DNA of 55,800 bases from Spirogloea muscicola (lineage: Eukaryota > Streptophyta > Zygnematophyceae > Spirogloeales > Spirogloeaceae). The translations under genes were made by a program, and so were the position numbers. Each line of letters starts with the position of its first letter. Within the stretch, counting starts at the first letter, position 1. Below are positions 22,050 through 52,291 of the stretch, one piece after another. The stretch spans positions 65,937 to 121,736 of the forward strand of contig WELB01000255.1 in NCBI GenBank assembly GCA_009602725.1. The letters run 5' to 3'. The notes beneath the pieces were generated by a model. It was not told the origin of the DNA and did no database searches. It was given only the letters and a program-made list of their open reading frames with translations.

Positions 22050-24590
22050 AGCTTCTAAATGAGGATACCCACTGACAATCTGGTCAATTCGCCCGCCTGT
22101 GCTCGCCTGTGTGCTTCTGGGGCGCAGACCCAAGTTCGAGCTCACATGGTCGTGCAAGTCGGGGGGGGAGGGAGGGGGTGGGAATCATGAAGCTCTTTCA
22201 AGAGGGGGCAATGGCTGTACAGCCAGCCCAGAAAGCATCAAACGAGATGCCAAGGACTCAGGGGAGCGCTTATCACACCCGGATAGCAAATAAACTCCCA
22301 AGAATGGCTGCTTATTTATCCCTCTTTAGCAGCCGCAAAGCATACGTAGCAGCCGAGGAGGAGTTGCCCTGCTTAGAAAAGAACAGGGCTGTCTAAAAGC
22401 CTGAACCGGCAGCAAGGATACGGCCAGCAAGCAGATGCAAGCATATACTTAAAGGAACCTGCGGCATTAGACGCATGCGGTATGCAAGGGCTAGAGAGCC
22501 CGTGGCAAGGGATGCTGGCTGCTACCTTTGCAGGATTAGCAAAATAAAGATCAGCTTGGCCTCGATTCGTCTCAAGCGCACAGCACGCCCAACCCCTATT
22601 GCTCTTCTTAGCGCTTCCCCTGGCACCCTTCTGGTCATCCTTTTTGGGCTGGCTTTTCCAGCCCCTATTTTCAATGGGCAAGTCCTTTCTTCTATTGCTC
22701 CATCAGGACACGAACGTCGCACATCGTCATTGCGAGAGCCACACCAGAAGAGTCGCATTGTGCGCGTAAACTAAAAGTGGCAGATTAAGCCAATGCACTG
22801 TTCAGGCAAAGCTAGTGCAGAAAGTGCGCCATCCGGCCCTTTCAGACTTTGGGCTGACCTCACACAGCGTCGTCTCGTGTCTAGCTGTGTAGCTTCGGCA
22901 CCTTTTTGGCTCTTTAGAATGTCCATTCTTTCTGGGCTGGCTTTGCCAGCCCCTCTTCTTTATGGGCGAGCAATCCCGTTCACAGCCACCAGTCAATTTG
23001 GAAGAGCTGTTCCTTCCAGAAGTGGAGGCTACATGAATAGAAGCCCACCGCAAAGAAGAAAAGCTCGCCCATAGAGGAGAGGGGCTGGGAACGGCCAGCC
23101 CAAAAATAATGAACAAGGTTCGAAAGGGCTGGGGGATGCGCTATGCAAAGGGGTGCTAAGGTGTGATAATTGAAGCTCGCAACGAAAGAAGGCGCGGCCA
23201 GATTGACTGGTGGCTGTGAGAGGCCAGCCCAAAGAGAAGTGGCATTCTCAATGGGGGCAAGGGCTGTGAAAAGCCAGCCCGAAAAAAATTGACAAAACGT
23301 TCGAAGGGGCCAAATGACGGAGGGGCCTAAAAAGCGCTAAGCAGCTACGAAGGGGCTTGAAGATGCGAGAGCAAGCGCGGCCAGATTAACTGGTGGCTGG
23401 GAGAGGCCAGCCCAAAGGAATGGACAAGGTCTGAAGGAGCCGGAGTGCTAAGGACTGAGACAGCAGCAAGCGGGACTCTCAGTAACCTCTAGTCAGTAGA
23501 TGCAAATCTGAATAGCTAGCAGGCGGAAAGACGTCGCCAAGAAGATTCTATGTCAGAACGGGGGAGGATGGACCACTCAGTAGTTACGAGTGAGGAGCCT
23601 CAAATCCGACAAACTGGCTGCCGGAAAACTATCCCCCTGCCGAAAGCCTGAGGCCGCAGCGAGAGCACGGCCAGCACGCAGATGCAAGGCGTGGGCCATG
23701 GACCCCTGAAGGGAGACTGACAATCGCATGCGGTATACAAAGGAATGGACAAGGTCTGAAGGAGCCGGATGGTGCAGAAAGCAAGGTGCCAAGTGCTAAG
23801 ACGGCAGCAAGGGGACTCATACGAAAGAAACAGCTCTTTCAGTGCAGTAAGAAGAAGTGGCACTCCCAATGGGGGCAAGAGCTGTGAAAAGCTAGCCCGA
23901 AAAAGAATTGACAAAGGTTCGAAGGGGCGAAATGATGGAGGGGCCTAAAACTCGCTAAGCAGCTACTAAGGGGCCTGAAGATGCTATGTCTGCAGCGAGC
24001 TACTCAGACCTGATGTTGCTCACTCGTGGGTACTGAGCTTCCCTCTGCATTGTCTATGTGTTTTGCAGTGTTTTGTAGTGTATTCCTATTTCCGGCTCCT
24101 CTTTCTTTGGCTTTGGACATTGTCCATTCTTTTTTGGGCTGGCTTTGCCAGCCCTCTTCTCTATGGGCGAGCACTTCCTTCCTATGTCAGAACGGGGGAG
24201 GATGGACCACTCAGTAGTTACGATGAGGAGCCTCAAATCCGACAGACTAGCTGCCGGAAAACTATTTCCCTGACGAAAGCCGGAGGCCGCAGTAAGGCAA
24301 CGGCAGTGACAGGCCAGCCCAACGTACAAGGTCGGACAGGGCTTTCCAGGAACCCAGTCTCTCTGACCTGAGGCTGCTTAGCAGGGGTTACTGAGTGCTT
24401 CGTAGCTGCTTCGTTTCTTTTTGTGCTTGTTGTTCTTAGTGCTTCCCCTGGCCCCTTCTCGTTCTTTGTTCATTCTTTTTTGGGCTGGCTTTATCCAGCC
24501 CCCATCCTCAATGGGCGGGCCCTTCTCTCCAGGAGAAGGCGCGCGGTGCGCATGAAATTGAAAGGGAGGCCAATTCAAGCCTTACAAATG
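22050..24590. mobile_element. Patchwork of LINE 3' tails, both orientations
   Basis: At least ten fragments of one tail family lie here with no host gene. Protein-ending remnants are readable: on the minus strand SDLHLLTRGY (23520-23470) and SFPAASLSDLRLLTRNY then TGA (23640-23577), plus a near copy at 24270-24220; on the plus strand YSDLMLLTRGY (24005-24037) and SDLRLLSRGY (24360-24391). Tails carry short hairpins: GGGCTGG/CCAGCCC at 22646-22664, 22934-22952, 24136-24154 and 24482-24501 (+); 23261-23280 and neighbours near 23083, 23220, 23400 and 23890 (-); and GGCTGTACAGCC at 22213-22224. A direct repeat of roughly 100 bases is present at 23550-23660 and 24184-24300. Confidence 0.85.
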
Positions 24591-24599
24591 ACCTGTTAA

Positions 24600-25170
24600 C
24601 TGGGAAATGAGCTGGCTAAGGGGGACACTAAATATCCCCGAGTGAGCACATGCATATCTGACAAGCTATACTGAGGCGCCAAACCACCACCACGGAAGCC
24701 ATTAGCCTGTGCTAATGCACGACCAGCACGCTGGTGTTTCGCGAGTGCCTGGGAGCGCTGTAGACTCAATGATAGCCGCATTCTATGGCATGCAACGATG
24801 GCTTGCGGGACGCTAGAATGCCCCAAGCTACCCGCCCGACTACGTCGGCGGGCATCGACATGCAGTGCCAGGCGATGGAGGAGGGAAGACCACTTCGTTC
24901 CGTAGCCGCCGTAGATGTCCATGGCGCATGGGAAGACGTGGTCGCCCCGGGGGTGGTCATTGTAGTGCCTCTCCTTCTTCCTCTCTGCATGATGTGTGTC
25001 GCCCAACCTGGCACAGTCGGTGTGGGTGCCCCTGGTTGGAATGCGTTGATGAGAACGACGTCGAGGAGAAGACGAGGCCCACCATTCCAAACACCAACCC
25101 ACACCACCGCCGCCAAACTCAACCGCCAGGACGACGACTGGAGTCCTGGTCACGGCGGTGCTGCAGGTCG
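24600..25170 (-). pseudogene. Decayed 5'-truncated LINE ORF (C-terminal part)
   Basis: A minus-strand frame aligns with the C-terminus of the intact LINE protein: AERKKERHYNDHPRGDHVFP corresponds to AEQKKLRHYSDYPRSDHLLP. It then continues through KHQRAGRALAQANGF and LSDMHVLTRGY, but here no stop follows. Further upstream (24990-25170) the same frame loses similarity, consistent with frameshifts in the endonuclease region. It keeps only the last 150-200 residues or so, the usual result of incomplete reverse transcription, and is diverged enough to be an old copy or another subfamily. Plus-strand open frames across 24785-25390 are its shadow. Confidence 0.85.
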
Positions 25171-25530
25171 CCTGTCCCAACGCCACCCGCGGGGGCGCCT
25201 CCGCGGGTCGCCGCTTGGCAACTGCTGGCCCCGCGCTCGCGCGCCCGGCGATGGCGATGATGCCGGTGCCCGCCAGCGAGCTGTGCCAGGGGCGACTGGC
25301 GAGGCTGGCGGACAGGGCCGCTGTAGCGGCAAAGCGAAGCACCGTGTAGTCAGGGCTTGTAGGCGGGGCCCGCTTAATCGACTGCGATGAAGCGCGCGCC
25401 AACAGCCTGTCTGGACAGGCAGTCAGGCCGACCCAACGCAACTTTGATATGCAGGACCTGCATTTGCGGCACATGTCCCAGCCTGCGCTGCTGAGGGAGT
25501 TTCGCTACTGCGATGTGGCAAGTGCACCTC

Positions 25531-28500
25531 ATGGCGTCAAGCCCTGTCCACCTTCTACTTCTCTTTCTGCTTCTGGCCATCGGCAGCTGGACGGCTGTGC
25601 GGTGAGCATGCTCCACCCTCAGATCTTTGATGTCCACGCTGTGAAAAGCTGGAGTCAAGGAAGGCTGACAAGCCCGCGTCTCCGCTTGGCAATGCTTAAT
25701 TACCTGCCGGCCGCTCAGAAGTAGCTGCCTGCCACCTTCCGATCGTTCCAGAGCCTCTGACAGCTGCTCCTTTTCTGCAATCAAGCTGATTATACACAAG
25801 TGACTGGCAGATTCATAGGGAAGGGGCTGGCTCTCCTGATCAGTGCGCTGACAGGGAACAGCATACGCTGCCGATTTATAGGCCTTTTCCGCGTGAAGGA
25901 CGTGACTGTTGTATTCAAGAAGGTAATACAGACGCCATAATGTTGTCACGCACCTGATGGTGCTAAAGAGTGGCAAGTCCGCTGGATACGCCCCTCAGCT
26001 GGAAGCTGTGTTGCTCCTCTCTTTTGCAGGGCGCTATTGCTTCATTGTCGGTCAAGGAAGTGCGATTCAGCTTTGGTCATGACGTAAAGCCAATCTCTGG
26101 CAGCTGGACTCGTCCATCTAAGCTGTGCATGTATCTCCTGGAGGTTGACATTGTTCTACAAGGCCCTCGATCAACATCAACCAAGCAAAAGCATCAAAAG
26201 AAGAAGGTCAGAACGCAGAACGAATCAGGTCGAGGAATATGGAGGCTTGTCAACTTTGTGGCACGAGTCCTCACCCTCAATGTTGCTGACATCACAATGA
26301 GGAGCTTGCAGGTACAGCCTTTGCAAGCCTTTCCATGTACTTGCAAGCCATTCCTGTGGTGCTAAGAGTACATGGCTGTCTCCTTATCTATGCATATGCT
26401 GTTCATCATAAGTAAAGGTGGAAGAAGAAGCTTATGTAGAAGATCTTCAAACTTCAAGCAATTACTTTGGATGCTGCTTTTGAGCTTGCTGTGGATCTTG
26501 CATAACATTGCCGACAGAAACTCAATGACAACATTTGGTAGCAGGTGCCAGACCTCTCATTGAGCTTACGATCTCTATTCTTTAGCGGCTACATAGAGGG
26601 AGGTGCCTCATACCTTGGTGTGCGAGTGGAGCTTGGGCGCTTTCGAGTATCTGTCACAGAGAGCATAGAGCGCCGGTCTTCGCCTTTGCAGAGGACGCTC
26701 GGTCTGCTGTGGCGACCACCATCGCAAGCGGACTTTCACGTTATTGATGTTGAGCACTTGTTGACGGATTCCCGCTTCTTCCATCACAAGTACGTCTAAG
26801 CATTTAGTTGGTCCTGTTGCAGAAATTGCTTGGTGTAATGCAGAGCACCTCTACTTCGCACTTTGTCAAACTGACAGAGACTTCGAGCTTGGAATCAAAA
26901 TCTCAGTAGAAGCTCAGAAATCATGAGTTTGGTCCCTCACGAGCTCACATGCTCTGCATCAAGTAGCTATACAAATTGAGTTTTCAAAGTCAGATTTCAC
27001 CAATTGAAAACTTGCATTCTCTAGGGATGCAGGCATCCTCCTGCAGACGGCTGATGTTGAGTGCGGAGCCATTAGTGTGCAAGCAACTGACAGACTCCTT
27101 GACTTAGCTATCAAAAGAGCTCCTAAGTCACCAATCCCGGAGTCGTCTATCAATGACAGCCAACCCACTAAAGCTGGTCATAGCAGAGCTAGACATCCAT
27201 TTCACTTGCCTGATCAGGTGGGCTTTAGCTCCACGTCCCGAAGTATCTGACAAAGCAGAGGGTAGACATGCCCTGATGAATGTTACAAGCTTCATCCTTT
27301 ATGCTTCATGCTTGTGCGGAGTGCCAAGGTTGTTCTCTTCAACAGGAAGGATGACTCCTACCCTGCATTCATATCTGGTGCTTCAGCTGCTCATTGGCTG
27401 AGTACTTCGCTGGACCACTGACTGCTCAATGTGCAGATCAAAGTCAAACTTCCAACAATCAACATGCGATGTGAGCACAGACAAGCGGGCTTGTCAGCAA
27501 CCTGCCTCGTGCTTATGGTTGAACTGCAGTTGTGCTTGAGAAGCAGGCCAAGAGAGGATACTGGGGGCAATCTACAGTGGCCCGTACAGCTCAGCTGCAG
27601 CAGTTTCCAGGTCAAGAAGTGTTCCACCCAATCTTTATTCCTAAACCTTTGCTCCTTTGATGCTGCTTGCTGCTTGCTGCCTGCCAATGTTGTCTTCTAA
27701 GATACTGGATGTGTCTGAGGCTTGCGAAGCATGACTTATACCTGCTTTTAGAATTCCTGCGTATGATTCTATGAGCAGATAACACATCTTGGGGTGGACG
27801 ATCCCCTCTGTAGTGCAAAGCTCACTCTGGAAGCTCTGATAAGCAACTCAATGGAGGTAGTCTTCGCTCACCCTACGTGTACATATTGTCGAAGAGTTTC
27901 AAAATATAAAATTGATCTGTAGTCATGTCTGCCTCTGGGTGCAGTACGAAGACTAGACACGAAGTAGAGAAGCGCAGCCCACCCCTTTGAAGAGCCCGAT
28001 GTGATAATTTCAGTATGTCCTGACCAGAAAGGATTGCACTTTACAGCTCAACGTCATGCTATCGGCCTGCAAAGTCGGACAACCAGGCAACTTTGCAATC
28101 TCTGATGCAGACGTGGTTCATCTGCAGGATGACATGATGAAGCTGCAAGTGGAAGCTAGCATTGAAAGAATGGGCGTATGTGCACAAGTTGCTCACTTGG
28201 AGCCCTGGCTGAAGGTGATTGTGGATGAGTTGAGGGCAAGGCGAGCCACTATCACTGTCAAGGAGAACAGGACGCTGAAGTCAAGACAACCAATGGCAAA
28301 ACGAAAACCATTCCTGTGGGACTGCACTCTGGTCCTACCTAGTGCAGTTGGTCAGGTGGTTGGCTGGAATGGTGGCTGCTTGTACATGGTGAGATCATGG
28401 ATAGCCCAGCTGTAGTGTGCATGCAAGCTAGCCACATGGGTGTATATCGAGTGGCTTCATCCTTGCACATTTTAGAGAGTCCTCATTACAGGATGTCAGG

Positions 28501-31500
28501 CAGCATAAGTGATCGAGAATCTCTTGCGGTCATTATGATGCTGAAAAGTTGATGACAATCACTCCAGCAGTACCCTGGAAGTGAATATCTGCTCACAAAA
28601 ATACAATCTGTCACTTCACAGGCTACCTGGCAGAATACTCACCTCTATCTTGACTCACATGAAGCTGATGGAGCTACATCATTCCAGCTCAACACTAGTG
28701 AACTTACTCTGAAGACAGCTTGTTGCACGTGTGACCGGGAGTTGGGATCTGACGGATGTAGCTTGAAGCACGACAGACTGGGACTTGTAGAAGTGCTCAA
28801 CTTGAAAAATCTGATCCTGCAGAAAGGGGCAAATGATGCTGAGGGCTTGGAGCTGGATGAGGGGCTCTCCCACGGGCAAACTACAGAGCTTAAAGTGGAC
28901 AGTTCCGGACTATCTATAAATGTAGACTATGCAATTGTGAAAGCCTCTGTAGAGTTGGTAACCTCATTGCACGTCTACCAGAAGAGCCATCTTCAGGGTC
29001 TACAGAGGAAAAGGAAGGGGGTCTTGAGGAAAAATTCCCATGGGGCCACTAAGAGCACTTCAAGTGCAGGCCTCCTCGCCGTCCACATGAAGGAAATTGC
29101 TGTCCACGTCACCTGGCCTATAGAGAGGCCAGAAGCCCACTTACCAGATCCCAAGAAGGTCAATTTTGGAAGTATGGGCGGCGAGGTCCTCTTCACACAC
29201 ACCCCGGATGGCGAACCCCGAGTTGCTGTGATCAGTCTTGCTAATAAGAAGGGAATTGAGATGCCAAGCCTGAAGACCAAGCTCCTCCTGCAGTGTGCAG
29301 GGATCAAATTTGAGCAAGGCCAAGGAGATGGCAGCAAGAGTTGCTGCATCCAATGTCTTCACACTTCCTATCAAGAGTTTGATGTCAAGGAGCAGTTGCT
29401 GGAGGACTTATCCCTACTGACTGTACAGAAGGCTGATTTTGCATTCCACAAGCTGCATGAAGGGCAACAACCACCTGTAAATATTCTCATTAGTACAGTT
29501 GGACTTCAAGGCAGATGGGAGCCTGATGTGCACATCTTCTTCTACCAACTTCATCTTGACATCAAAGCTCTTCTGCAGCACAGGAGAGCAAGGCTGGCTG
29601 AACGTACCACAGTGGCGCCCTGTGCAGATATAGCAGCAGGAGACAGTGCCAGGGCATCAAGCAAGACAGGAACAGGTCAGGTTGTTGAGAACCTCCTCGG
29701 TGAAAATCTGGACATGCCTGCAACTTCAGCCTCACATAGCATTGACACAGAAGGTCATGGCCAAGCAAAGAAGGCCTCAGTAGTAGCAGTGGATATGGAA
29801 GAGACAGTCATTCAGGTTGCTGCAGGCGATGGAGCAGAGTTGGTGGTGACCATGCAGTCTACTTTCTCTGAAGATGCAAGAGTGGGAGTTCTCTTGGAGG
29901 GGCTGCAGGTGTCCATCAATCGAGCAACACTACTCACCAGCAAAGTGCTGCAAGTTTCTAGATTGCCTGCTACTCCGCCAAGTTGGTCTGGCTCTCCCTT
30001 GCCCCCTGGCTATCCATGTACAGGTGAAGGTCAAGGCTTTGCTGGAGGACATGCAGGACTTGAGCATGAGATGGCTGTATCAGATTACATCTTGCAAAGT
30101 ACAGGCTTGCGCTTTGTGATGCCGTGGCGACTGGAGTTGCGAGCAGTTGAGGACGCTGTGGAGGACATGTGGAGATGCCTCAAGATAGCAATGGCAGCCC
30201 AAAGACTAGCCAGGCCTTTGCCTGCTAAAAAGGCCAAAGATGCAGTGCATGTTCTCAGTAGACAGCCAGTCAGGAAAGGCTTCTGGCGGATCAAGCTTCG
30301 AGACCTATCGATGGAGATTGAGGAGGAGCCAATTCAGGTGAGGATCACCAGCATTATGGTTGTTGTGCAACAGTAAAGGACAGTCAGGATCAGGCACCAT
30401 CAAGCCTTTTACGTCTTGTCCAGCCTGACCTTGATCCACTAATGCCATTGTCGCTGGTGAGCAGCTGCATGCACTGCTGTATAAATCCAGCACACATCTC
30501 ATGCTTATTCATATCACGCATTGCAAATGAGATGTAATCCTCACCTGCAGGGCTGGTTGGACCAACACCATCGACTCCTGAATAAGGAGGTGCAGCAGCT
30601 GATTGTGAGGGAAGCGCTCCTTGATGAGAGGACAAAAGAGTCTGAGACTGGGCCACATGCAGACAGCAGCAGCCCTTCAAATCTTAAGGTTGATGTGATC
30701 AACACGGACATCAAGCAGGATACATCTCATGCACCTCCCCTTCCTATCAGCAGCAATGAAAGTGCATACAGTGCTGCTGCAGTGGCCCAGGACATTGATG
30801 CTCTGCGCTACGTGACACCTGGTGTACTTGGTGAGCAGCAGCCGGATCTCCTGGGCAGCAAGTCATTTAGAGATGGCAAGCACGAAAGCATTGGCTCCAA
30901 ACTTTGGAAGTCAGCATGGGAAACCCTTCATAAGCAGACTGCAGAAGCCTACAAGGCCCAGTGCAAGAAGCTGGTGACAGAAGCCTGCACCGGCGCCTGC
31001 ACAGATGGGTTTCAAGGTGGCTTCACCCCCAGCCATGACCGCCGAGCTTTGATGTGCCTAAGAGTAGCTGATCTGGATTGGGTCCTATCCCCTGTGAATG
31101 GGGGAAAGGATGAAATGATTGCGCGAGCTCTTGACTTAGACGAAGTGAAGGGGGGCCCACCCATTCCGTTCTCGAGACTGATGGGTCGTCACATTGATGG
31201 ACATTTCATGGGCGCCATGGTAACACTCCGAGATTACACACTACCAATGTTCCGGGCTGAGAAAGGATCAGTAAAAGGAACCTGCATCTTCGCTCAGCAG
31301 GTGGGGTGTGCTTGCTGGCGGTTTCATGTCATTTTCAAAAATTTCTATTTGCTTGAGACTGCACAACTCAAGTCTACTCTGTCCCATGTATCCTGGCTGT
31401 AGTGCCTGGTCAAGCAGGTTATGTACCTTCTTGGCGATCTTCAAGTCTGAAGAAATTAGGATGTCTACTTCTACTCAAGACCATACCATTTGATCCTCAG

Positions 31501-34500
31501 TGCTGTTCTGCCAGACCTGCTTACCTCATTCTCACATTGAGCCCTTGCCCTGCCCTGCAATTCGACAGGCCACCATATACCAGCCACAAATCGTCCAGAA
31601 TATTTTTCTAGGAAGGTGGTGGAGCATGCAGGTGCTCCGATCCATGAGCGGCACAACGCCTCCTCTTAAGTTCTACTCAGACTCCGCCTGGGATGTCAGT
31701 CATGGTGATATTGCCTACAGTGTGGGATGGGAGCCTGCTATTTATGGAGATGTGAGCTACGCCTTCACAGTGGCACTGAGGAAGGCGGATCTTAGTACAG
31801 TAATATCGTCCAGAAGACCCGAGGCAACAGGTGCAGATGCTTCTCAGCAGACATTTCCTGCAGTTAAGGAGCGCAGCTTGCCCTGGTGGGACTTGATGCG
31901 ATACTACAGTCATACCAGGTGCTGGATATCAATCACCAACTTTGTATACTACATGCCCTCTACAGCTGATCCTTATGACGACGAAAACCACGCATACATG
32001 TCGGCCTCAGAGTTCACCTTTTTTCAGCAAAAGGGGAGGATAGTATTGGATGCGGAGAACTATCACCTCTTAATATCACGTGCTGAAGGATTTGAAGACA
32101 TTGCGCAGAAAAGTTGCAGAGAACCCTTTTTATCATCACCATTTATCCGAGTCGATATAACACTTAACTGGGATTGTGGACAGCCAGATGCTGGCATGCA
32201 CTATTTGCATGCACTTCCAACAGATGGGAAGATGAGGGACACGCTTTATGACCCTTTTAGATCTAGTGGACTCGACTTGGGGTGGATATTCACGCTAAGG
32301 AAGGATGCCCTCCCTCCCGTAGGAGGATATGCAGGAGCTTATTGGACACGCAGTGTGTCAAAGGTCGAAGACCTGGATATGCAGACAGCTGAGCCTCACA
32401 GTGCAGCTGGAGAGGGGTCGCCAACGCTTTATCTCAATGGGGCCAATTTGAAGTGGATGGTTGCTTGGTATAACCTCTTCTACTACTCCACAGGCAAGCT
32501 GCGCGGCTTTGCTCGCTGGCCAAAATTTGGAGTGCCAAGAAGGCCTAGGTCTGGAAATCTTTCACTTAGTCAGACATTGTCAGAAATGCTTACCAGAATG
32601 GATATGGCTCCCTGTCAAATCTGCCAAGTACCCCAGGTTTGCTCCTGCTGCCCTATGAGCGCCTGCTATTCTGCCAGGGCTCGATGGCTAGGCTCTTCTA
32701 TCCATCTTGATTGTTGCTAGTTCCATTGTGGCTGTCGAGATAGATGATACTGAGGCTTGCCACTGAGATTTGTAGGCCAGGCTCTATATTTGCATGACAT
32801 AGGGCGAATGGAGCTTTTTCTGTCTCTGTTTGATTAACTAGAGCATGGGCCTGTGGGTGTGATTGACCATAGCCTCTACTTGAAGTAAGTGTCTATCATA
32901 ATTTGTGATTGATGAGCTATTGGTGCCTGCTAAACCTCTTGCAGGAGGACGATAATACAGAGGGCTTGTTATGGCATATGGAGTCACTCAAGTACGACAT
33001 TGTTTATAGTAGAAATCTCAGAAGAGACTGGGATGGGATCAGCAAGCGGCCTTCATTTGTCACAGTTCATCAAGGGTTGGATATCCGCAAGGTCAGAGTC
33101 AAAGTTGCTATGGAGGTGCAGGCTGTGAATGAGTATGCTGAAGATGGGGAAGGGTCACTGAGTAGCAGCAGCTACCCCAACTTGAGTGAGCTGAAAATGC
33201 TATTGGACCTGCCAAGCGACTTTGATCTTGGTCCTGCGCCTAACCAACATGTGGATATACAACCTTCAGATGGGGTCTTTTTAGCAACAACAGACGACAT
33301 AACTATAAGGAAACAGGCAGTAAGTGCAGACCAGCAGCGGCTTCTTGCTCTCTGGGGGATAGGTTCAAAGCCCAGTGGAGAATGGACAGGCAAAGGGCAA
33401 GTCAGCGAGGAGCAAACGCCTCACGTCCTCGGCCATCACAGAGCAGCCAGCTTAGACACAAGTGACGATGTTGTTGACAATGATGGCTTCCTGTCTGATG
33501 CAAGCGATGATGATGGCTTGACACTGCACCTTGCGGATAATTGTTGGCGGATACACCTGGTCGGTCTGAAGATTCTCTGGACCGTCCCAAATCGAAATGC
33601 ACTGTGGATCTGGGTTGGGGACATCAGCAAGGTAATAGCACGATCTTCTTTTAGCTCAGCTTGCAGCAACTTGCCCACTTTGTCCCCAAGTAGCCTGGAC
33701 ACCTTGGCAACATGCTCCATGCTTTGATCTGCAAGTTTGGCAACTAGCTGTATGCCCTCTTTGTCCAGATCTAGTGAAGAGCCCAGAATAAGAGCGAAAC
33801 ATGCAACAAGGTCTTTGCCTATGTGAATGACGGGCCTTCTGTAGCCAGCGATCTTCTTTCATCCCAATCAGAATTGGACCTGCGTTTACAGGCCTTCTCG
33901 AGAAAGAAGCAGTCGCCTTCACGACAATACATAGCTCGGAAGAAGAGGGAAGAGCAACAACAGCTCGTTGAAAGGGGGATGGAAGCTCCTCTGACTGTGC
34001 CTGCTCTTACTGCAGGCACTAGTGTGCCACAGCGACCTGTCATTGATGGTTTGGCCATACATTACTTAGCTCCCATTCATTGGTTGCATGCACCGTCATG
34101 CCAATCTGGAAATTCTTGACATTTAGGAGTAGCACCAGCACGAGTCAGGTCTGCTGAAGAAGGCAGTTCTGCAGTTTAGATGCCGCTGTCATGTGAGGTT
34201 CGATTGTACTTACAGCAGGCATTTCATCTGTATTTGTGCTTTTGCTGTATAGATGTTGAGAAAGCTGAGGATGATGAGGGGGTGATGAAGTTTATGATCA
34301 ACATTGTTCAGCCGCAGTTCAATCTCCAGTCGCCCAATGTTTATGTACTGCTCTATCCTATGTACAAGATGTGCATGAGGTGCATCACCAAGAAGTATCA
34401 AATGATATTGCTAAGGTCCTCAAATGCTACGGTCTCACTATGTGTACTGGGTCTTACAGGGGCGATTCCTGCTAGCCGCTGCCAGCGGGAGGGTTCTTGC

Positions 34501-41056: not shown

Positions 41057-42322
41057 GAAAAAAAATCACTGCCAGCCGGCCTTGGCGTCATTGGCATTGG
41101 CGTTCTCAAGCCTGGCCTGCTAGTGTTCATGCTCTTCTTCTCTGCAGGGGCAGGGTATGCATCACCACAAATCAGAACCTTGAAGTAAGCCCCAGACTGG
41201 AAGTATGAAGCACTGCTGTTGGCCAATGCTGAGGTCAGACCAACAAGGTACGGTGCAGTGTTCGTCAAAGATCATGAAGAGACGATTACCACTAAGGTTG
41301 ACTAACACACACGCAATAAAAGTAGGAAATTGAAAGCGCACCACTGTGACGTGGCTTTGTGGGCTGCCGCACCACAGCCGTTGCCGGCACCGCAGGTTGC
41401 GTGACCTGGTTGTTCTTGATGTCAAGGTTGAGGGCCTCCAGGACGCGTGCAGGCACGAGCACGGTGGAGCAAGCTGGTGCAGCAGGCAGCAGTGCAATGG
41501 TCAGCAAAGTTGCCTTCACAAAATTCATAGGTAGCCTTCACAAGCAGCAATTCTGATGTCAGTGCCACCAGTAACTCGTCCGGCAATGGCGATCACGCAA
41601 GCCAGCAGCTGCACTGCCAGGAACTCACAGGGCTTGCGTGCTGCGTTTGCAACTGCGCCGCCCGGGATGAAGACGCCGGTGCCGGAACTGATCCCGTCTT
41701 GACCCGCTCTTGGGGGCCCCAGGAAGACCGCAGTCATGCCATTGCCGCCGCCAGGAAGCAGGCCGCTGGCGAAACCCCCATCGCTGCTGCCCACGCAGCC
41801 TGGCCGGAGCCGCCGCGGAGGGGCGCTGCGCTCGTAGAGAGTGCCAGCAGGTATGGCCTGCGGCAAGAGCGGCTGCTGGTTCCTTGCTCCTCCGGCATGA
41901 GCGCCACTGCGGCCCCGCCGCGAGCCACGCTTGCCGGGGGCGGTCCCCAAAAGGGGCGGCAGCGCCTCCTCCGCGAGCCACACTCCAGGCATGCTCGTCG
42001 CCGGCGGCCAGTCCCGGCCGAGGCCTCGGACTTGGCCAGCAGCAGCATGCAGGAGCTCCCAGGGGTCCGCGTGCTCGTGGGCAAGCACGGACGTCGGCGA
42101 CGAGGAGCAGCTGTTGGAGCAGGACGGGGACGGCGACGGCATCGGCAGCGGCCGCGGCGTTGGCGACGGCAGCGGCTGCAGCGCCGGCTCCCGCAGCGGC
42201 CAGCCGGCAGGAGGCAGTGGCTGACTGCGGCTGCCGCCGGCCAAGAGAAGCGGGCCGCCAGCAGCAGCGGGGACGGCGGTGGCGGCGGGGGCCGCCGGCG
42301 GCGTCGCCCAGATGCTCGGCAC
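40996..42322 (-). CDS. Plant-type protein of unknown function with GTGVF and LP-EWTY motifs
   Basis: Three exons join in phase: 42322-41629, 41473-41342 and 41045-40996, about 290 codons. Exon 1 is Pro/Ala/Gly-rich with DPWELLHAAAGQVRGL in the middle and MTAVFLGPP...GTGVFIPGG toward its end. It splices to KPSCSTVLVPARVLEALNLD and then to RMPSLELPFEWTY with stop TGA at 40998-40996. From memory, land-plant proteins of an uncharacterised family share this order: a W-LLYAAAGEV block, AVFLG, GTGVFLPR, CSTVLLPARVVQALNL and a C-terminal LPQEWTY. The last acceptor has a strong pyrimidine tract. The ATG at 42322 is the first in frame and not certain. The N-terminal acidic part of land-plant relatives was not found. 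No biochemical role is known to me. Confidence 0.7.
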
Positions 42323-43520
42323 GGTGACGGCGGCAGCGGCGTACGGTGCCTGCCATAAGGAGCAAATTTTGGAGCGCCGGTCAGGAGCCGGCGAGAGAGC
42401 TGAAAACTCTTCCAGCAGAGGGCGATGGCTGTGATCGGCCAGCCCAAGGAAAGCAATCCATGAATAAACAAAATCAAGGGGGCCAGCAAAGTGCTAAAGC
42501 AGAGGGAGCAAGCACCCCAGCGCCAGAGGAAAATGTAGGGGGAGTCGCGCCGGACCTGGCTCAGGGAGCCGCAGAGGAGCTCGGGCGTGGAGCAGCGCGA
42601 CGCAGGTCCCGCCGTGGAGCAGCCGCCACCGCAGCCGCCGCAGCCGCAGCGGCTGCCGGCGCAGGGTGTGCCGCGCCAGGCACCGGAGGCCGCCTCGCCG
42701 TCCCACCTCCAGCCGCTCTCACCGCCGCCGCTGCGCCCNAGAGCGGGGCTGCGACCTCACGCTCGCGGCGGCGGCGGCGGCGGCGGCTGCGGCGGCGGGG
42801 GGGGGGCTCGTGGCTATGGTGGCGGCTGCGGCGGCGGCGGATGGAGCTTCCGGGCCGCCGCCACGCTTGTCGTTGGCACGCAGCTCGCCCGCCGCCTGAC
42901 CTACCCTCCCTCTTCCCGGGGGGGCCAGGTGGGAGGACGGGACAGGCGTACGGACGGAGCCCGCCCAGTCAGCGCAATCCGTACTGTACGTACGGGCCGC
43001 CGCATCTTGGGGCGGGTGGGGCCGCGCCGCCGGCAGCGCCCCGAACGTTGGGCGAGCGCCGCGCCGCCACGTGGCCCGCAGTCAATCTCCAGAAGGTTGG
43101 GGGGGCCGCCTGACAAACCCCGCCCGACGACTCACCGTCGGCCGCAGTCGGGGGGAGGAGGGGGTGAATTCGTCGGGCGCAAAACGGGCCCGCCCCTGTC
43201 AGGGGGATCATCGGGCGGCGGCCGCCCAACGTGCCGCGGCCCCGCCAGCGCGGCAGCCCAGTGGGCCCCGCCCCCCGGCCCAACGTGCGGGGGCGTAACG
43301 GCGAGACCTGTGCGCCGTCGGATGGGGCCCGCTTTCGCCGTCGGATGCGCAGCAGCTGGGGGACCCTGGCCCTGCGGCCGGGCCCCGGGGCGACGTGGCG
43401 GCCCCGACGGCAGCGGCAGCAACCCCCCCGTCAGCCGTCACCAGGCAGGGTACGGGCTGTGGCCGCCGAGGAGGCGGGTGGGCCCAGCCTGCCCCTGGGT
43501 CCTGGGAGCTCTGCAGGCTG
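42323..43520. other. GC-rich non-coding DNA with one ambiguous base
   Basis: About 1.2 kb upstream of the EWTY-family gene. It is GGC/CCG-rich, with one n at 42739, just before a run of GCGGC repeats. At 42425-42450 (ggctgtgatcggccagccc) there is a weak match to the minus-oriented LINE tail hairpin. All long frames look compositional. It probably includes the promoter of the minus-strand gene starting at 42322. Confidence 0.5.
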
Positions 43521-44540
43521 GCTTCTGCCATAGCCTCTTCAGGCCCCGCAGTCGCTGCTTAGCTCGTAGTTTGGCCCCTTCGAACCTTGTCAATTCTTTT
43601 CGGGCTGGCTTCTCACAGCCCTTGCCCCCATTGGGAGAGCCACTTCTTCTTCTCCTGACAGCCGTGGCTTGATTCTCATTTGTACTTGCTGGCTCGAGGT
43701 TATTGAGCGCCTCTTGCTGACGTCTGGGAGACTACTATTGTGACGGGCCAGACCCAGGGCGGACAAGAAGAAGTGGCTCTCCCAATGGGGGCAAGGGCTG
43801 TGAGAAGCCAGCCCGAAAAGAATTGACAAGGTTCGAAAGGGTACCCCGCAGGGTGTGACACCCGTCCGGTTGCCGGTATTTATGGAACAAGCGGCGGCCA
43901 GATTAAGTGGTGGCTGGAAGAGGCCAGCAAAGAAACGGACAAGGTCTGGATATCGTCTATTACATTGTTCGCTAACCTGTGGCAGTTGATCATCGGTTAG
44001 CCCTATCTTCTACACTATCCTGCTTCTTACGCCATCCGGCCCGTTTCAGGTTTCCGTCAGGGCGACGCTCTAGTTACGCCCTCTACTTAATCTGACTTGC
44101 ACTTACTGACTAGCGCTTGTTGAGAGCCCACTTACTGCCGACTTGAAGACTAGGTCACTTTGGAAGAGCTTTTTCTCTTCAAGGCCTTGTACATTCCTTT
44201 CGCCTGGCCTCTCACCGGCAGCTAGTCTGTCGGATTTGAGGCTCCTCACTCGTAAACGATGGAGTGGTCCATCCTTTCCCGTTCTGCCATAGCCTCTTCA
44301 GGCCCCGAAGTCGCTGCTTAGCTCGTATTTTGGCCCCTTCGAACCTTGTCAAATCATTTCGGGATGGCTTCTCATAGCCCTTGCCCCCATCGGGAGTGCC
44401 ACTTCTTCTCACAGCCATTGCCGTAAATTGGAAGAGCAGTCTGCCTTATTTTCTTCTTGAAAGCGACTCTCCATACGCCTGCAGGCTACATCGATACTTT
44501 TCCCGGCTACTTTTGGGGTTACTGAGCTACCATCGCTTTG
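43520..44540. mobile_element. LINE 3'-tail cluster, both orientations
   Basis: Plus-oriented tail copies lie at 43527-43651 and 44285-44410. A minus copy lies at 43765-43837. Degenerate protein endings are seen at 43675-43707 (LLARGY), 44050-44132 (GFRQGD..., SDLHLLTSAC) and 44226-44258 (ASLSDLRLLTRK). The segment 43895-43960 (agtggtggctggaagaggcc) matches 23376-23440. No host exon was recognised. Confidence 0.8.
43579..43837. repeat. Perfect 73-bp inverted repeat of LINE tails
   Basis: Arms 43579-43651 and 43765-43837 are exact reverse complements by eye over 73 bases, separated by 113 bases. Each arm is the last part of the tail (ttcgaaccttgtcaa ... ccacttcttctt) and contains the GGGCTG/CAGCCC hairpin. 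It is two insertions of the same tail in opposite orientation. Confidence 0.9.
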
Positions 44541-46488: not shown

Positions 46489-49400
46489 TCAAAGAAGGCC
46501 ACTCTTGGGCACGTTGGAGACATGACTCCGCCGGCCCATCTCATGGCCGAGCCTGCCGGGCACGGCTGCATTGGTCCTGGGGACTCCTAGAAACCCACTT
46601 CTTGGTGGGATATAATTGAGTGGGCCTGTGGTGGGCACCCTCCGGACCTGCGGCAATCGGCTGCTATAGAACATTGCGACCGGGGTTTCAACAGCCATGT
46701 TGTTGTGGGAATTGTTGTCGCTGTCATCACCATCACTCTCGCTGCTGCTATTGTACAAGAAGGCCGGCTCTGATGGCCTCCTCTGCGCGGCATCTACATC
46801 GTCACGCAACGCGTCCACTACCCTCTTCTTCCGCCATGTCCGCATTGTGGACTTTGCAAACATGGCAATGTGGGCTGCAGCCGCGACACCGGGCTCGTTC
46901 GTCAGGCGCTCTCCGGCTGCGGCGCTGGCCGCTGCTTCCAAAACAGCCGCTTGTAGAGCAGCCTGCTCCTCTTCCCTCCTGATCGTATCCACTTGCCGCT
47001 GTTTATATCGATGCCACCTTGTCTGAATGACGCCGGCTGCCCAATGCCGCCACTGCAAGTCACAAGGTTTTGCTCTAAGGAAGTCAAGTGTCACAGCAAG
47101 TGCGGAGGCTCCAATCTGGAGTTGAGAGTACTGTTACGAAGGTGTGCAAATATCAGGCAGTCACAGATGCTCACCAGCCAGATCAATTACACTGACTTCA
47201 CCGAGAAGGAGAATGGGTATATGGGTCACAGATTAGACCTTGCAATTAGGACTAATAGTGCACGGCAATGCAAGCCAACCAGAACGTACCAGGTGTGAGT
47301 AGTAGCGGTACATGTGGCGCAACCGACGAGTATGGATGCGACCCATGTGGTCGGTGACATACAGGAGGTCGTCGACGCCAAGCGAGAAGGCCTCGCACTC
47401 CTTGAGCACAATGATGGTGCGCGTGGACGAGGGCAGCTGCGTGCTCTGATTCGGGTCCAACGCCCAAGTCAGGAGCTCCTCGCCGCAGAAGTCACCGGGA
47501 CCCAAGAGTCCCTGCGTATGGAAGCCTGCAATAGTGGTCGTGCGCCACACCACGGTAAAAATCAGCAGAGGATCGTCCAAGTAGAGGCCCAGCAGCCACT
47601 GTCGAGGCTCACATACAGCTGCTTGACTACAATGCTGTTATACCCAACTTGACCAATTTGGATGATATCGAAGCTGATTAGAGCTATAAGATATGGCTCC
47701 AGTCAACCAGTTGATTTGGCTGCTCAAAAAGGTAAAGACCTCCATAAGCGCACATCCATGGGCTAGACTAGGTGCTCAGAGAATTACCTGACCTTCCTCC
47801 ATTGGTTGTCACTGACTCGACCTTGCCTGAGACGAAGAAGAACATGCAGGGAAGTGGGTCGCCCTCGCGCAGGAGAGTTGTGCCCTCCACAAAGATGGCC
47901 GCTTTGAGGCGCTCGCAGATGGCGTCTAGCACAGAGTCTTCCATCTCACTGAATAATGGGACCTGCCAGAAAGATAGCTGCAGCAGCGTCAGCCTGCCAT
48001 GGACTGCCTGTGTACATGATGCTGTCATATGCATCTCACATGCGAAGCGAGGAGAGTTTTAGCATTGTCAATACCACAGATGAATAAGTGACTGGTACTG
48101 CGTACGATAAGATACCCATGCTACCAGCTACATCACGTACTTGGCATCAGTACAGTCTCGCAATTTTTCATCAACTTTAGAATCATAGTGGAAACCATGG
48201 TAGCAGAATCTGTGCTAATGCGAGTGCGAGTGCTTCCTCCCACCTTAAGCACAAGATCAAGTGCTAAGTGGCGCTTTACATCACGGCGGATGTCCGGGGA
48301 CAGGTTCATGACAAGCTGCTCCTCGTCAGCACCACGCGTGGCCATGAACTTGTACTCCTCAAATCGGTTGATGCGCTCACGGAACATTCTAGGCAGCTGC
48401 CTGTGCTGCATCCAGCTTTTCACATCCCGCCGCTTCACGCGCGCCTCCTCTAGCCGGAGGGTCGTAGATGCCAAGTACGTCTGATGGCAGAAGATAGTCA
48501 AGCAAGGGCATATAGCATAAACATGTGATCACTGAAATGTTGGTTCAAGATGAATTTGCTACTATGGCCGTTTACATAGCTGCAGAGAGATCAGCTACTT
48601 CTAAGAGGCTTGCAGTGTGCTGACAAAGGCTTTTCAGTGCTGGCATATGACTGGCAAGCGATTCTTGACTGGCTGGGGTATCTGAGGGCAGAAGGAGGAC
48701 CTGCATGCCACCGATGAGGTGGGAGAAGAGCAAGAGGCCAAGGATGACGAGCCCGATGCAAGCAAGGCCTTGCGCCACCGACGGCGTGGGAAACAGGCCC
48801 TGCCCAAGCGTGCTGCGCCAGGAAGTCCAAGGGTGCCACAGTTGCTGGTGATGTAGGCATCGTACTCAATTGTGCAGATATTTCTCAGACTTTGAGAGCC
48901 AGGGGTGAGTGCTTTAGGCTAAAATCTTGCACACAGTAGTCTAAGCATGACCAAGTGGCGCAAGTTCGTGGTGAGGGCGAGAGTAACCTGAGGTTGACCA
49001 GGCCCCAACGGAGCGAGTAGAAGAGGCGATTGCAGAAGGTCGCATCCTGGACGATGTGGCTGGCCACTGCTGGCGTGTAGATGCCGTAATCGAATAGGTC
49101 CGGCCCGTCCCTGCAGCTGGCAGCGATCGCCGCCCAGCTATCTGAGCCGAGCCAGCGGCTGCGGGCGGGGCTGCCGGCCTCCCCGCAGTCAAAAAAGGCC
49201 GACCTGCAGCTCCCTGCCGGGCTGCCCTGCTGCCGGTGGCAGTAGCGCCGCCAGCAGTAGTCGATACGCTGCACCGAGAACGCATACCAGATCGCCCCAA
49301 TCACCTGAAAAGGTAGTGAGGCAAAAGGGCTGGTGAGACATGAAGGTGCTCAATCACGGCAGATGGTAATGTATCTCCTCAGGTATATCACAGGATTGAC

Positions 49401-50963
49401 ATTTAGAGTAGGGTGTCATTCTTGACTGTGAACTTGCAACCTTGATTGGTCCATGGTGACAACCATCACGCTAGTGGCAATGCCGAAGTCGAGGGAACTG
49501 GCAGGGCTCACGTGACTGGCGAGGATGTAGAAGACGAGGTTGTAGGCCGCGCCAGCCCACGAGTTCTTGACGATGACTCCGAGGAGGTCACGCATCTTGG
49601 CCAGCGAGGGGAGGAGGCGCGCGACCCGAGGCCCGAGCTGCAGCAGCGAGGAGAGCCGCACGGCCACGCGGACGCCCTCGCTTGCACTGCCAAGCTGCGG
49701 GATGACGGCGTTCATGTACACCTGCAGAGCGAGCTTTTAGGGCTTACATTAGCATCTAAGATCCACGCTAGGGCTTACATTAGCGTCTAGAAGTCCCATT
49801 CATGGCTTACATTAGCATCTAAGAGTCCAGCATTGCACGTGGGGTAAGGCTTCAAAGGTGTTAAGTGTGATGCACTCCGGCGAGCAGTGGCCATGTCTCC
49901 GAAGACATGGCCACTGCCCCAGCAGCTGCAGCAGGAGCGGTGCACTACAGCACCTGAGGCAGTGGCAGAGCCGCCAGAACGTCCAGCCAAAAGGGGCCAC
50001 AGAGATAGTGTTGCACGACCACCCGAAAGTTCGACACGAGCACGCGCTGGTCATAGGGCCGGCCGAACTGCGCCGGTAGTGTCACCTCGACGGGCAGCCA
50101 GAACTGGCAAGCCGGCAGGACTGAGTCGGTCAGCTCTTCCAAACAGAAAGACGAGGATTTACAATCTGAAAACCCATTCCAGTTCGAGGTCAGTTATCAG
50201 GCATGGCTGTGACTGCCAAAGAGCTGGGTACGGTAGAGGCCCGACCTGGAGAGCAATGTGCACGAGCCAGAAGGCGTCGAGCACGGAGCGCAGCGCCGTG
50301 AGTGGCGGCCGCAGCGCCGCGGGCACGTAGATGCACAGTGAGCCTGACACCACCGGCGCGTAGAAGAAGAGCGGGTCCACAAAGACTGAGGCCAGCGCGG
50401 CCGCAGCCGTCGAGGCGTCACCCACGCGCACCGCAGTGAGTGTCAAGCCTTTGCCAATGGCGCCGTAGCCAATTGCTGGGCTGTCAACCTTAAGCAACAG
50501 CTTACTCCAACAGTGAGACCCAGGCTCGCGACCCATCCATTCTGCGTACCGGCGAGGACGTTGACGACGACAAAGACGCGGTCCCACAGGAGGACGCGGC
50601 GGCCGCGGGGGTCCAGGACCCGGTGAGCCGCCCTCGCCGCCAGCGGCCCTCGTGGCGCACCGTCAGCCTGCTGGCCCTTGCCGGTGGCACTCACGTCGCC
50701 GAGGCCTTCCCCAACGTGGGTCTCCTTCTCGGCGGCAGCATCGAAGCTCTCAGGCGCGCCCCGCTGCGGCGGCCCGCTGCCCATCGAGCGCTGCACCAGC
50801 CCGAAGAAGCTCCTGAGCGTCTTGGCGCGGGCAGCTACCCCGACGGCGGAGCCGCCGCCGCCGCGCCGCCGGCGCTGTGCTCCCGGTCGGCTCTCTGAGC
50901 CGTAGGCCATGCCGTCCACCGCATCCTGGGCCCTGCCGCGACGGCAGAAGGATGGAGTCTGCA
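46489..50963 (-). CDS. CNGC: Plant-type cyclic-nucleotide-gated cation channel
   Basis: A six-transmembrane plasma-membrane cation channel with a C-terminal cyclic-nucleotide-binding domain and calmodulin-type IQ site. Ten exons on the minus strand follow the plant CNGC order. Exon 1 (to about 50549) has HRVLDPRGRRVLLWDRVFVV. S1 has VFVDPLFFYAP (from 50384) and S2 has FWLVHIALQ. S3 has YLCGPFWLDVLAALPLPQ (near 49960). S4 lies in 49722-49520, ending KNSWAGAAYNLVFYILASH. S5 has IGAIWYAFSVQRIDYCWRRY, ending LRWGLVNL (near 48988). The pore is STLGQGLFPTPSVA (near 48810), so the filter is GQG, followed by S6 ending SHLIGGMQ. The linker is TYLASTTLRLEEARVKRRD (48482). The binding domain has VPLFSEMEDSVLDAICERLK (near 47960) and PGDFCGEELLTWALDP (near 47500). 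The IQ-like site is AAGVIQTRWHRYKQR (near 47030). It ends SNVPKSGLL. ATG 50963 is preferred; 50910 is possible. Upstream codons lie inside a LINE tail. Confidence 0.93.
49735..49835. repeat. Three spaced copies of an 18-base motif in a CNGC intron
   Basis: The motif ggcttacattagcatctaag, with small variants, occurs three times at about 49740, 49772 and 49805. It lies inside the minus-strand channel gene, between the S4 exon (from 49722) and the S3 exon (near 49950), beside the acceptor-side exon border. This looks like local duplication. Confidence 0.85.
49884..49917. repeat. Perfect 14-bp inverted repeat in a CNGC intron
   Basis: Arms gcagtggccatgtc (49884-49897) and gacatggccactgc (49904-49917) flank a 6-base loop, tccgaa. 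It lies in the intron between the S3 and S4 exons, downstream (in gene direction) of the exon ending LPLPQ. In pre-mRNA it would form a stable hairpin close to the donor side. Confidence 0.9.
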
Positions 50964-50984
50964 TTGACTCATGGAGGGCCTGAG

Positions 50985-51075
50985 TGGCCAAGTACAAAGG
51001 CAAGCACATTGACAGGTGTACATCGCCTGCTGCTGTCTAAGCTAACCCGCTCAGTGACCACGAGTAAGCACAGAG
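50985..51075 (-). mobile_element. LINE 3'-end fragment of the intact-element subfamily
   Basis: About 90 bases matching the 3' end of the intact LINE (7612-7700), including ggccaagtacaaaggcaagc and the last codons VLTRGH with TGA (intact element: VLTRGY). It has small insertions and substitutions, so it is an older, strongly 5'-truncated insertion. It lies in the same orientation as the channel gene and ends about 20 bases before its preferred start codon. Confidence 0.85.
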
Positions 51076-51079
51076 CGCG

Positions 51080-52140
51080 GCTCGGTCAGCCTTTGAGCGA
51101 AACTGGAGGAGCTGCACAAGGGTCCGGGAGAGTGCCGGCATTGCCAAAAGAGAGAGCGGGGTTCGAGCCGGGAGGAGGACGGCGGAGGTAATGAGAGAGG
51201 GAGGGAGGGCGGGAGGGAGGGAGGGACGGAGGGGCGAACGGGCACCACAGCATCGGTAGCTCGTCGTTCCCGCCCCCGCCGCCAGCCTCCTCCGCCGGCG
51301 GCGGCGGCGGCGGCGGCGCCTCCATCTCCAGGCTCACCGGCGGCATCCTCACCGCCGCCGGCGGCGGGCTGTCGGACTCCGGGCGTTCGCCTCCGCCCGC
51401 CACGCCGCGCAGCGCGGCGCGGAGCCTCGGCCCCAACAGCCGCTGCCTTCACTGCCGCCGGGACCACCGTGGGGACCTCACATCAGCCAGCCCCTTCTCC
51501 GCCGCGGCAGCGGCGACGGCGGCGGCGACTGCGGCGGCGGCTCCGGCTGCTGCGGCGGTGGCGGCGGCGGCGGCGGCGGCGAGAGCGGCGGCGGCTGGCG
51601 CGCCTTGTCCGGGGGCAATGTGGCCTCCCTCCCTCCTCCCCTCCCTCCCCCCTCGGTCTTCGATGCCCATAGCGGCGCCCTCGCCTCTCGAGCGTTGACT
51701 TCGTGTCGACCACCCCCGCACGTGCTCCCTGACTTTTCACGGCCCTGCTTTTCTTCTCGAATTTTCCCGTTCCGCGTTTGGCTAATGGACTGTTAAATGC
51801 ACTGAAATTGGAATCGCAGTCAGCTGTTGACAGGAGTGGGCTTGGGAACAGGCGTCTTGTGGGCACTCTGTTCAGCTAGTGCACTGCCTGCCATCCACGA
51901 GCTGCTTGACTTCAGAAACGATGAATGAACAAGGTCCACAGGGCCCATAGGCGCCAAATCAGACAGCTATGCAAGAGAATACAGCGAATGGGAGCTTAAG
52001 TTTACCAGATCAGCAGCCGCGGAATAAACGGCAGCGGCTTTGCTGAGCGCGTGTAAGGTACATCTGACCGATGTCATTCAAACAAGAGAGTGGACTCCCG
52101 TGCAATGGAACCTCACTGCACATTCTGGTGAGTGGCCAAG
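51080..52140. other. GC-rich then AT-balanced intergenic DNA
   Basis: 51180-51700 is low complexity: gggaggga-type runs, then GGC/CCG repeats. A minus-strand frame starting at 51436 (reading NDELPMLWCPFAPPSLPP) might be an upstream exon of the channel gene, but nothing ties it to the family. From 51740 to 52140 nothing is recognised. Confidence 0.45.
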
Positions 52141-52291
52141 TTGTGGTCCATCCTCCCCCGTTCTGCCATAGCCTCTTCAGGCCCCGCAGTCGCTGCTTAG
52201 CTCGTAGTTTGGCCCCTTTGAACCTTGTCAATTCTTTTCGGGCTGGCTTCTCACAGCCCTTGCCCCCATTGGGAGAGCCACTTCTTCTTTC
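52140..52291 (+). mobile_element. Fresh LINE 3'-tail insertion
   Basis: The copy starts gtggtccatcctcccccgtt, the sequence that directly follows the TGA stop in sister copies (23577 and 24220 regions, inverted). It runs to ccacttcttcttt. Over about 125 bases (52165-52290) it differs from 43527-43651 by a single base (tttgaacc against ttcgaacc). It carries the GGGCTG-gcttctca-CAGCCC hairpin at 52240-52259. It is a nearly ORF-less, tail-only insertion. Confidence 0.85.

Follow-up and report, generated by a model that had tools for sequence, protein, structure and literature searches.

Compact RNA structures at the 3' ends of long interspersed nuclear elements (LINEs) have been described in several systems. 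In R2, a small part of the 3' untranslated region (UTR) with two stems and a junction is held by an extension of the reverse transcriptase (RT), with the 3' end of the RNA guided into the active site (PMC10499050). The last 67 nucleotides (nt) of the 3' UTR of the zebra finch element R2Tg form an ordered region with a pseudoknot, and a minimal 3' UTR of 67 nt is reported (PMC12222951). A stem-loop near the 3' end is reported to be required for retrotransposition in UnaL2, ZfL2, SART1 and R2, and its recognition by the RT has been demonstrated in stringent-type elements such as UnaL2, ZfL2 and SART1 (PMC5135761). Monocot LINEs of the L1 type and short interspersed nuclear elements (SINEs) have a hairpin in the roughly 50 nt of their common 3' end, for which compensatory mutations are reported, and an L1/SINE pair from Chlamydomonas has about 80 nt of 3' end in common (PMC3747384). 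Here we analyze a 55,800-nt stretch of Spirogloea muscicola DNA (contig WELB01000255.1, positions 65,937 to 121,736; hereafter the window), which has a GC content of 54%. In the window, LINE tails of at least five sublineages, designated A to E, have a common terminal core of about 60 nt, and this core probably acts as a handle for the RT.

The core consists of a box (TTGTCnATTC), a U-rich spacer, a hairpin in which GGGCTGGC and CAGCC flank a loop, and a further 26-31 nt or so that run to the element end. The last 60 nt or so align well between lineages A, B, C and D (z = 3.9 to 12.6 in 6/6 pairs), and the core of lineage E aligns with all four of them (z = 4.0 to 10.3, 4/4 pairs). In contrast, the UTR between the stop codon and the box aligns no better than shuffled sequences in any of the six A-D pairs (z = -0.4 to 1.8), even though identity over the aligned columns is 65-82%. 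The shuffles in these comparisons preserve base composition only, and lineage A is represented by the copy at 44361, which has a degenerate stop. Within the core, conservation is highest in the columns of the arms, GGGCTGG and CAGCC. The difference between core and UTR is the best evidence that the core is functional, and it applies to the sequence level.

Exact matches to the pattern GGGCTG(N4-14)CAGCCC occur nine times in the window, compared with a mean of 0.20 in shuffled sequence, and none of 100 shuffles reaches nine. The stems that a sequence-only reading of this DNA had proposed at 22646, 22934, 23261, 24136, 24482, 43602 and 52240 are all recovered by this search, and its palindromic variant is present at 22213-22224. 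Two further exact stems, absent from its list, belong to minus-strand elements (23082-23101 and 43795-43814). The copy that it described as having an unpaired change exists, with one mismatch and one G-U pair, although its stem starts at 44361 rather than 44362. A profile built from eight seed tails finds 18 tail copies on both strands of the window at E<0.01. With the stem masked, a profile trained on the same copies that it recovers detects 13 at E<0.01 and another three at E-values of 0.011 to 0.094, so the tail set is held together by its flanks too and not by the stem alone.

The hairpin tails are LINE 3' ends. Six-frame reading finds the protein ends SDLMLLTRGY (24016), SDLRLLSRGY (24377), SDLHLLTRGY (23499, minus strand) and SDLRLLTRNY (23597, minus strand), each followed by a stop codon and a hairpin, in agreement with what the sequence-only reading had claimed of these tails. 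The window's full LINE open reading frame (ORF), 1255 amino acids (aa) long (7684..11451, minus strand), likewise ends in VLTRGY and a stop. A fragment of a second LINE lineage (24289..25500, minus strand) is interrupted by a D-type insertion; the hairpin of its tail, GGGCTGGCCTGTCACTGCC, lies near 24318 and contains a single U-U mismatch. Parts of this fragment match the 1255-aa ORF with 44.6% identity over 117 residues toward the C-terminus (24988-24632, minus strand; E about 1e-21) and 52% identity over 27 residues (25098-25021). With the D-type insertion removed, the second LINE reads through into a GGGCTGG tail of its own at 125 nt past the codon in the stop position. ORF and hairpin tail are therefore directly linked; the joined string retains CTTACTGC twice. 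A remnant at 23732-23580, before the minus-strand tail at 23280, has 53% identity to the last 51 residues of the ORF, with a weak E-value of 0.12. Several short copies also carry the LINE ORF end. No SINE partner is identified, and a scan of the window with ARAGORN yields no tRNA gene; no other search for a SINE head was made.

The 1255-aa protein is a LINE-type RT with a Pfam RT domain (PF00078, E=9.8e-19). Its matches in the PDB include R2 chains (E=0.0007 to 0.0026), which come after group II intron-type RTs at 0.0003. The weak N-terminal C2HC-like finger (zf-C2HC_2, residues 232-255) has an E-value of 0.00039 and scores 20.5 bits, below the cut-off of 27. No Pfam match to an apurinic/apyrimidinic (APE-type) endonuclease is found at E up to 0.1, in contrast to L1 elements, which carry one. 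The C-terminal residues 960-1255 have no PDB match up to E=10, and an AlphaFold model of residues 518-1255 has a predicted local distance difference test score (pLDDT) of 38, too low for use. The stretch TLDIVG...LVDVVVTEAY in this protein may resemble a restriction-like endonuclease (RLE). The cysteine-histidine knuckle, by eye CX1CX11HX3C in CECGFRTEGGDLATHMLRC, departs from the spacing CX2-3CX7-8HX4C published for RLE-type LINEs (PMC5678591). The protein cannot be assigned to the RLE clade, because no endonuclease domain is confirmed and the knuckle spacing is off the rule.

The explanation that we consider probable is that the terminal core is the handle of the RT, with the hairpin as its most conserved part. 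The element's RT would bind the core in the element RNA, the bound core would place the RNA 3' end in the RT active site, and target-primed reverse transcription would then start. Synthesis would usually stop early and leave tails such as those seen here, which span 75 to about 320 bp. We infer both the binding of the core by the RT and the folded hairpin as the form that is bound. A recognition hairpin in LINE tails had been proposed by the sequence-only reading. That the tails are LINE 3' ends is supported. A terminal recognition region is plausible because the sublineages have the core in common and its spacing to the insertion boundary hardly varies; within it a hairpin, as opposed to a sequence box, is a candidate for the recognized feature.

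The distance from the start of the stem to the element 3' end is 46-51 nt in the 10 of 17 copies in which it can be read. It is 46 nt in the A copy at 44361, C at 24136, D at 24482, E at 22646 and the minus-strand A copy at 23280; 47 nt in the minus-strand A copy at 43814; 48 nt in the minus-strand copies A at 23899 and B at 23411; and 51 nt in the A copies at 52240 and 18439. The boundaries at 43814, 23411 and 18439 were chosen among alternatives. Repeats at +43 in B at 18314 and minus-strand C at 23101 are left out of these ten, and the other five copies have no convincing repeat. The boundary search covered 17 copies in one run and 19 in another. Repeats of at least 7 bp flank 10/17 copies, a set that includes 18314 and 23101 and leaves out 44361 and 23411, which have 6-bp repeats; the same search finds such repeats at 29% of 3000 random positions. 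For repeats of at least 8 bp the values are 6/17 copies and 11% of random positions, with the copy at 23280 inflated by tail homology. Taken alone, the flanking repeats are modest evidence for the boundaries. Nested copies with empty sites are stronger evidence. For a C tail in an A tail, a B tail in an A tail and an A tail in a B-type tail, the joined flanks align with a relative that lacks the interruption, apart from a gap of 4-7 bases, which comes from cutting the flanks off the exact boundaries. In a fourth host, the tail around the A copy at 44361 reads on across a 6-bp duplication, TCTCAC. The duplications measure 5-9 bp, the flanks are unrelated from copy to copy, and the insertions are as short as 87 bp (E) and 75 bp (A at 18439).

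The spacing on the other side of the stem is not constant. The sequence-only reading had described a short, fixed distance from the stop to the hairpin, a claim that fails because the distance varies from 58 to 125 nt, and the near-constant interval is instead the one from stem to 3' end. The stop-to-stem spacing is 65 nt in B, 87 in D, 99 in C, 98 in the A copy at 44361 (counted from its degenerate stop) and about 114 in the A copy at 23899 without its nested insertion (118 if four duplication bases are counted twice). It is 58 and 61 nt in the two F copies, which have a different hairpin, and 125 nt in the tail at 24318, counted from the codon at the stop position. A near-constant distance to the element end would fit equally well if the hairpin served formation or stability of the RNA 3' end, as a processing or termination signal, and not RT binding. 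We think this unlikely. The stem is not directly followed by the U-run of an intrinsic terminator, no Rfam match falls on a hairpin (the window has three matches, all below the gathering score), and the fixed end of an inserted copy is set by where the RT starts, which is not necessarily the transcript end.

Pairing within the stem was assessed in an alignment of 17 rows, taken from a larger one of 23. The rows left out are the minus-strand B tail at 23232, whose upstream arm is lost to an insertion, the X tails at 18250 and 24318 (the latter on the minus strand) and three F rows with unalignable tails. The joined X tails at 24318 and 44200 have one stem mismatch each by eye and stand outside the pair counts. 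Standard pairs fill 94% of the cells of the five core pairs. All five are kept in 12/17 copies, at least one is broken in 4/17, and 1/17 lacks the first base; the earlier impression that only one copy has an unpaired change was thus too favorable. Nor is pairing kept independently of sequence, as had also been suggested, since both arms are near-invariant and 0/5 pairs changed on both sides. What is conserved is the sequence of the stem, and as long as no covariation is shown, pairing counts as a result of this. Where lineages differ at the ends of the stem, they do so on one side: A retains the outer pair, B the inner one, and C to E both.

Several observations weigh against an RT handle with a hairpin at its center. 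Compensatory change is found in none of the five core pairs, and covariation is no better than in shuffles, in a test that has low power because the arms hardly vary. The core stem is broken or shortened in 5/17 copies, as is expected of dead copies. Folding stability is ordinary in E, in B and in six of the seven A tails, and over the 17 copies its z-score has a median of -0.4 and a mean of -1.2. A perfect stem of equal length arises in 8% (A at 52240), 7% (minus-strand B at 23411), 26% (minus-strand X at 22229), 2.4% (D at 24482), 1.8% (E at 22646) and 0.1% (C at 24136) of 2000 shuffles. The window's one full-length LINE has no GGGCTG in its tail (7683 to about 7600), and a minus-strand copy at 51923 has the box without the hairpin. 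The boundaries rest on short repeats, some picked among alternatives, and 7-bp repeats are common at random positions (29%). Finally, the presence of the core in every tail is a partly empty argument, because a copy truncated at its 5' end always retains its 3' end.

A rival reading is that the core is recognized as sequence, through the TTGTCnATTC box together with GGGCTGGC and CAGCC, and that pairing is incidental or secondary. Across the 17 copies, the arms hardly vary and neither do the first loop bases, GC. There are no compensatory pairs, and where lineages differ at an end of the stem (at pair 26-45 or at the inner G-C), one side alone has changed, which simply alters stem length. However, in representatives of all five lineages A-E the conserved sequence forms a 6-8 bp inverted repeat without mismatches, and the one in C at 24136 is clearly beyond shuffles (0.1% of the 2000). 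In addition, the loop varies in length and content while the arms stay. We consider recognition as sequence possible, at a fairly low probability. Swapping the arms of the main stem leaves 14% of permutations as good as the native pairing, a test that is uninformative because the arms barely differ between lineages.

Folding is unusually stable in the three C tails (z = -3.5, -5.2 and -3.4), in D (-2.1) and in one A tail, the minus-strand copy at 23280 (-2.2). The functional fold might be larger, either with an outer helix of TTGTCCAT and ATGGGCGA around the hairpin or with an R2-like second hairpin after it. The enclosing helix is predicted in 3/3 C tails and in D, and a small second hairpin (CCAG-TTAAT-CTGG) is predicted in B. 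For the second helix together with the main stem, the covariation score is reached by 14/500 shuffles and the percentage paired by 2/500. However, a version of the second helix slid by three columns has higher covariation (0.191 vs 0.182), only one pair changed on both sides, and the excess over shuffles can arise from related rows. Swapped arms pair as well as or better than the native ones in 89% of permutations both for the outer helix and for the second downstream hairpin, and the covariation of the outer helix is at shuffle level, which led us to reject both candidates. The swaps used all 17 rows for the outer helix and six of seven A rows (without 18439) for the main stem and second hairpin. 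We therefore regard a larger fold as doubtful. A pseudoknot between the loop and downstream sequence was dropped by eye, with lineage A varying at its middle position. What looked like a compensatory change in the tail near 44200 is an artifact of an A-type insertion in its loop.

Shared ancestry of young lineages, with a hairpin that has no role and conservation that merely reflects lack of time, is very improbable. The copies within A are very alike, and no external relatives are confirmed for comparison, both of which would suit it; the contrast with the UTR is described above. Searches of viral contigs, bacterial and archaeal genome contigs, phages and plasmids confirmed no relatives outside the window, and the plasmid search matched only a 121-aa RT core. 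Because the databases cover bacteria, archaea, viruses and plasmids, the lack of relatives there means little. Among the matches listed, the open-access literature holds no description of this tail.

The picture most resembles R2. As in the R2Bm P1/P2 region and in R2Tg, a compact core that contains a stem lies at or near the 3' end, with the difference that the RT binding proposed here is demonstrated for R2. By eye, the 1255-aa protein also has a putative finger and an endonuclease-like C-terminus. R2 targets ribosomal DNA (rDNA), whereas the insertions here occupy unrelated sites and have duplications of 5-9 bp; the single rDNA insertion site of R2 proper is not found among these copies, whose flanks and duplications differ. 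R2 stems also differ in size and composition, whereas the stem here is conserved in sequence. A stem-loop near the 3' terminus, like that of stringent-type LINEs, is found in many of these copies, and as in UnaL2, ZfL2 and SART1 it is common to several elements of one genome. Unlike those elements, the tails have no long 3' simple repeat (A tails end in CTTCTTCTT at most), and unlike stringent-type LINE/SINE partners, the short copies carry LINE codons. The monocot L1 stem has compensatory mutations, and the tails here have none. A more speculative extension, which we hold at low confidence, is that these LINE lineages, non-L1 and probably of an R2-like clade, share an interchangeable tag of about 60 nt, so that one enzyme copies the tails of the others.

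Between 22 and 25 kb, an 87-bp E-type insertion (22605..22691, plus strand; hairpin 22646-22664) has a 9-bp target-site duplication (TSD), CTATTGCTC, at 22596-22604 and 22692-22700. An A-type insertion of about 239 bp net of a nested C tail (23852..24288, minus strand) has an end of the SDLRLLTRNY type, a hairpin at 23899 and the TSD CTTACTGC at 24289-24296 and 23844-23851. The 191-bp C-type insertion within it (23991..24181, plus strand) comprises the SDLMLLTRGY end, 3' UTR and hairpin 24136-24154, with the TSD CTATGTC at 23984-23990 and 24182-24188. The D-type insertion (24352..24527, plus strand; 176 bp) carries SDLRLLSRGY and hairpin 24482-24501, with the TSD TCCAGGA at 24345-24351 and 24528-24534. 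Another A-type insertion (23235..23737, minus strand) runs from RMRLSVSLQ to SDLRLLTRNY and hairpin 23261-23280, and its host is a B-type tail with parts at 23738-23790 and 23172-23234. Nested within it is a B-type insertion of about 176 bp (23365..23540, minus strand) with SDLHLLTRGY, a hairpin near 23412 and a possible TSD, ATCTTC, although other 6-mers repeat there too. C-type tails lie at 22909..22984 (plus strand; hairpin 22934-22952) and 23057..23128 (minus strand; hairpin 23082-23101), and the palindromic variant, GGCTGTACAGCC, belongs to an X-type tail at 22192..22238 (minus strand).

Between 42 and 53 kb, a 191-bp A-type insertion (44216..44406, plus strand; mismatched hairpin 44361-44380) with the TSD TCTCAC at 44210-44215 and 44407-44412 sits in the hairpin loop of a further tail (44178-44212 plus 44410-44450). 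A 147-bp A-type insertion (52144..52290, plus strand; hairpin 52240-52259) has the TSD CAAGTTG at 52137-52143 and 52291-52297. The A-type tail at 43575..43652 (plus strand; hairpin 43602-43621) lacks a convincing TSD, and the one at 43764..43840 (minus strand; hairpin 43795-43814) has a possible TSD, CTTGTCCG, that is ambiguous because its left copy lies within a B-type box. A B-type tail at 43880..43960 (minus strand) has the shortened stem GCTGG/CCAGC, and an X-type tail at 42407..42475 (minus strand) has GGGCTGGCCGATCACAGCC. Near 18 kb, all on the plus strand, are a 75-bp A-type insertion that is barely more than the terminal core (18415..18489; decayed hairpin at 18439; TSD GTTTTACC at 18407-18414 and 18490-18497), a B-type tail (18290..18370) whose stem GAGCTGG/CCAGCC has one broken pair, and an X-type tail (18222..18272) with the decayed stem GAGCTGGCTGTTCAAGCCC. 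The boundary of the 75-bp insertion is a choice, as another 8-mer, TTTTCTTG, also repeats nearby and would set the end of the B-type tail at +43. The segment 18277-18356, which covers part of that tail, is 99% complementary to 23370-23449. The tandem tails at 18250, 18314 and 18439 were considered as a template-jump chimera, which was rejected since the sequence across the supposed junction continues at a second locus, 51956-51996.

Other tails have no GGGCTG hairpin. That of the full-length LINE (7600-7683, minus strand) has the hairpin GGCC-ACACAT-GGCC 58 nt past the stop, and a related remnant tail (50955-51071, minus strand) has GGCC-ACTCA-GGCC 61 nt past it. A tail relative at 51900-51996 (minus strand) has the box TTGTTCATTC with no GGGCTG hairpin after it, and its upstream part matches 18167-18207. 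Tails inside tails (B and C in A, A in B, A in X and D in a LINE) form a cluster that may hint at a target preference. The B and C tails hit two A-type copies within about a dozen bases of one position in the A sequence (23541-23546 and 24182-24188); at this near-common place, the nested B lies in the orientation of its host and the nested C against it.

Elsewhere in the window, two ORFs (28742-30376 and 31500-32720, within the plus-strand region 28742-32720) match the Hobbit/FMP27/BTLP2 family (PF10344). Two diverged 90-nt tandem repeats (13339-13533, plus strand) lie inside a 489-aa ORF (12617-14086) that has no Pfam match. A further tandem repeat at 49738-49829 has a period of 32 and about 2.9 copies. 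A single ambiguous base (n), at 42739, falls in a very G+C-rich stretch and perhaps marks a weak point of the assembly.

Compact 3' tags have practical interest, as an R2 tag allows cargo RNA to be inserted in vitro (PMC10499050). In these LINE lineages, the likely RNA recognition tag is narrowed to about 60 nt, and the window offers natural variants of it with stems of 5-8 bp, differing loops and insertions down to 75 bp. If the tag is indeed interchangeable between lineages, then the insertion of 75 bp at 18415-18489 would represent a naturally occurring template of nearly minimal size. For the biology of LINEs, these tails would extend a known principle rather than add a new one.

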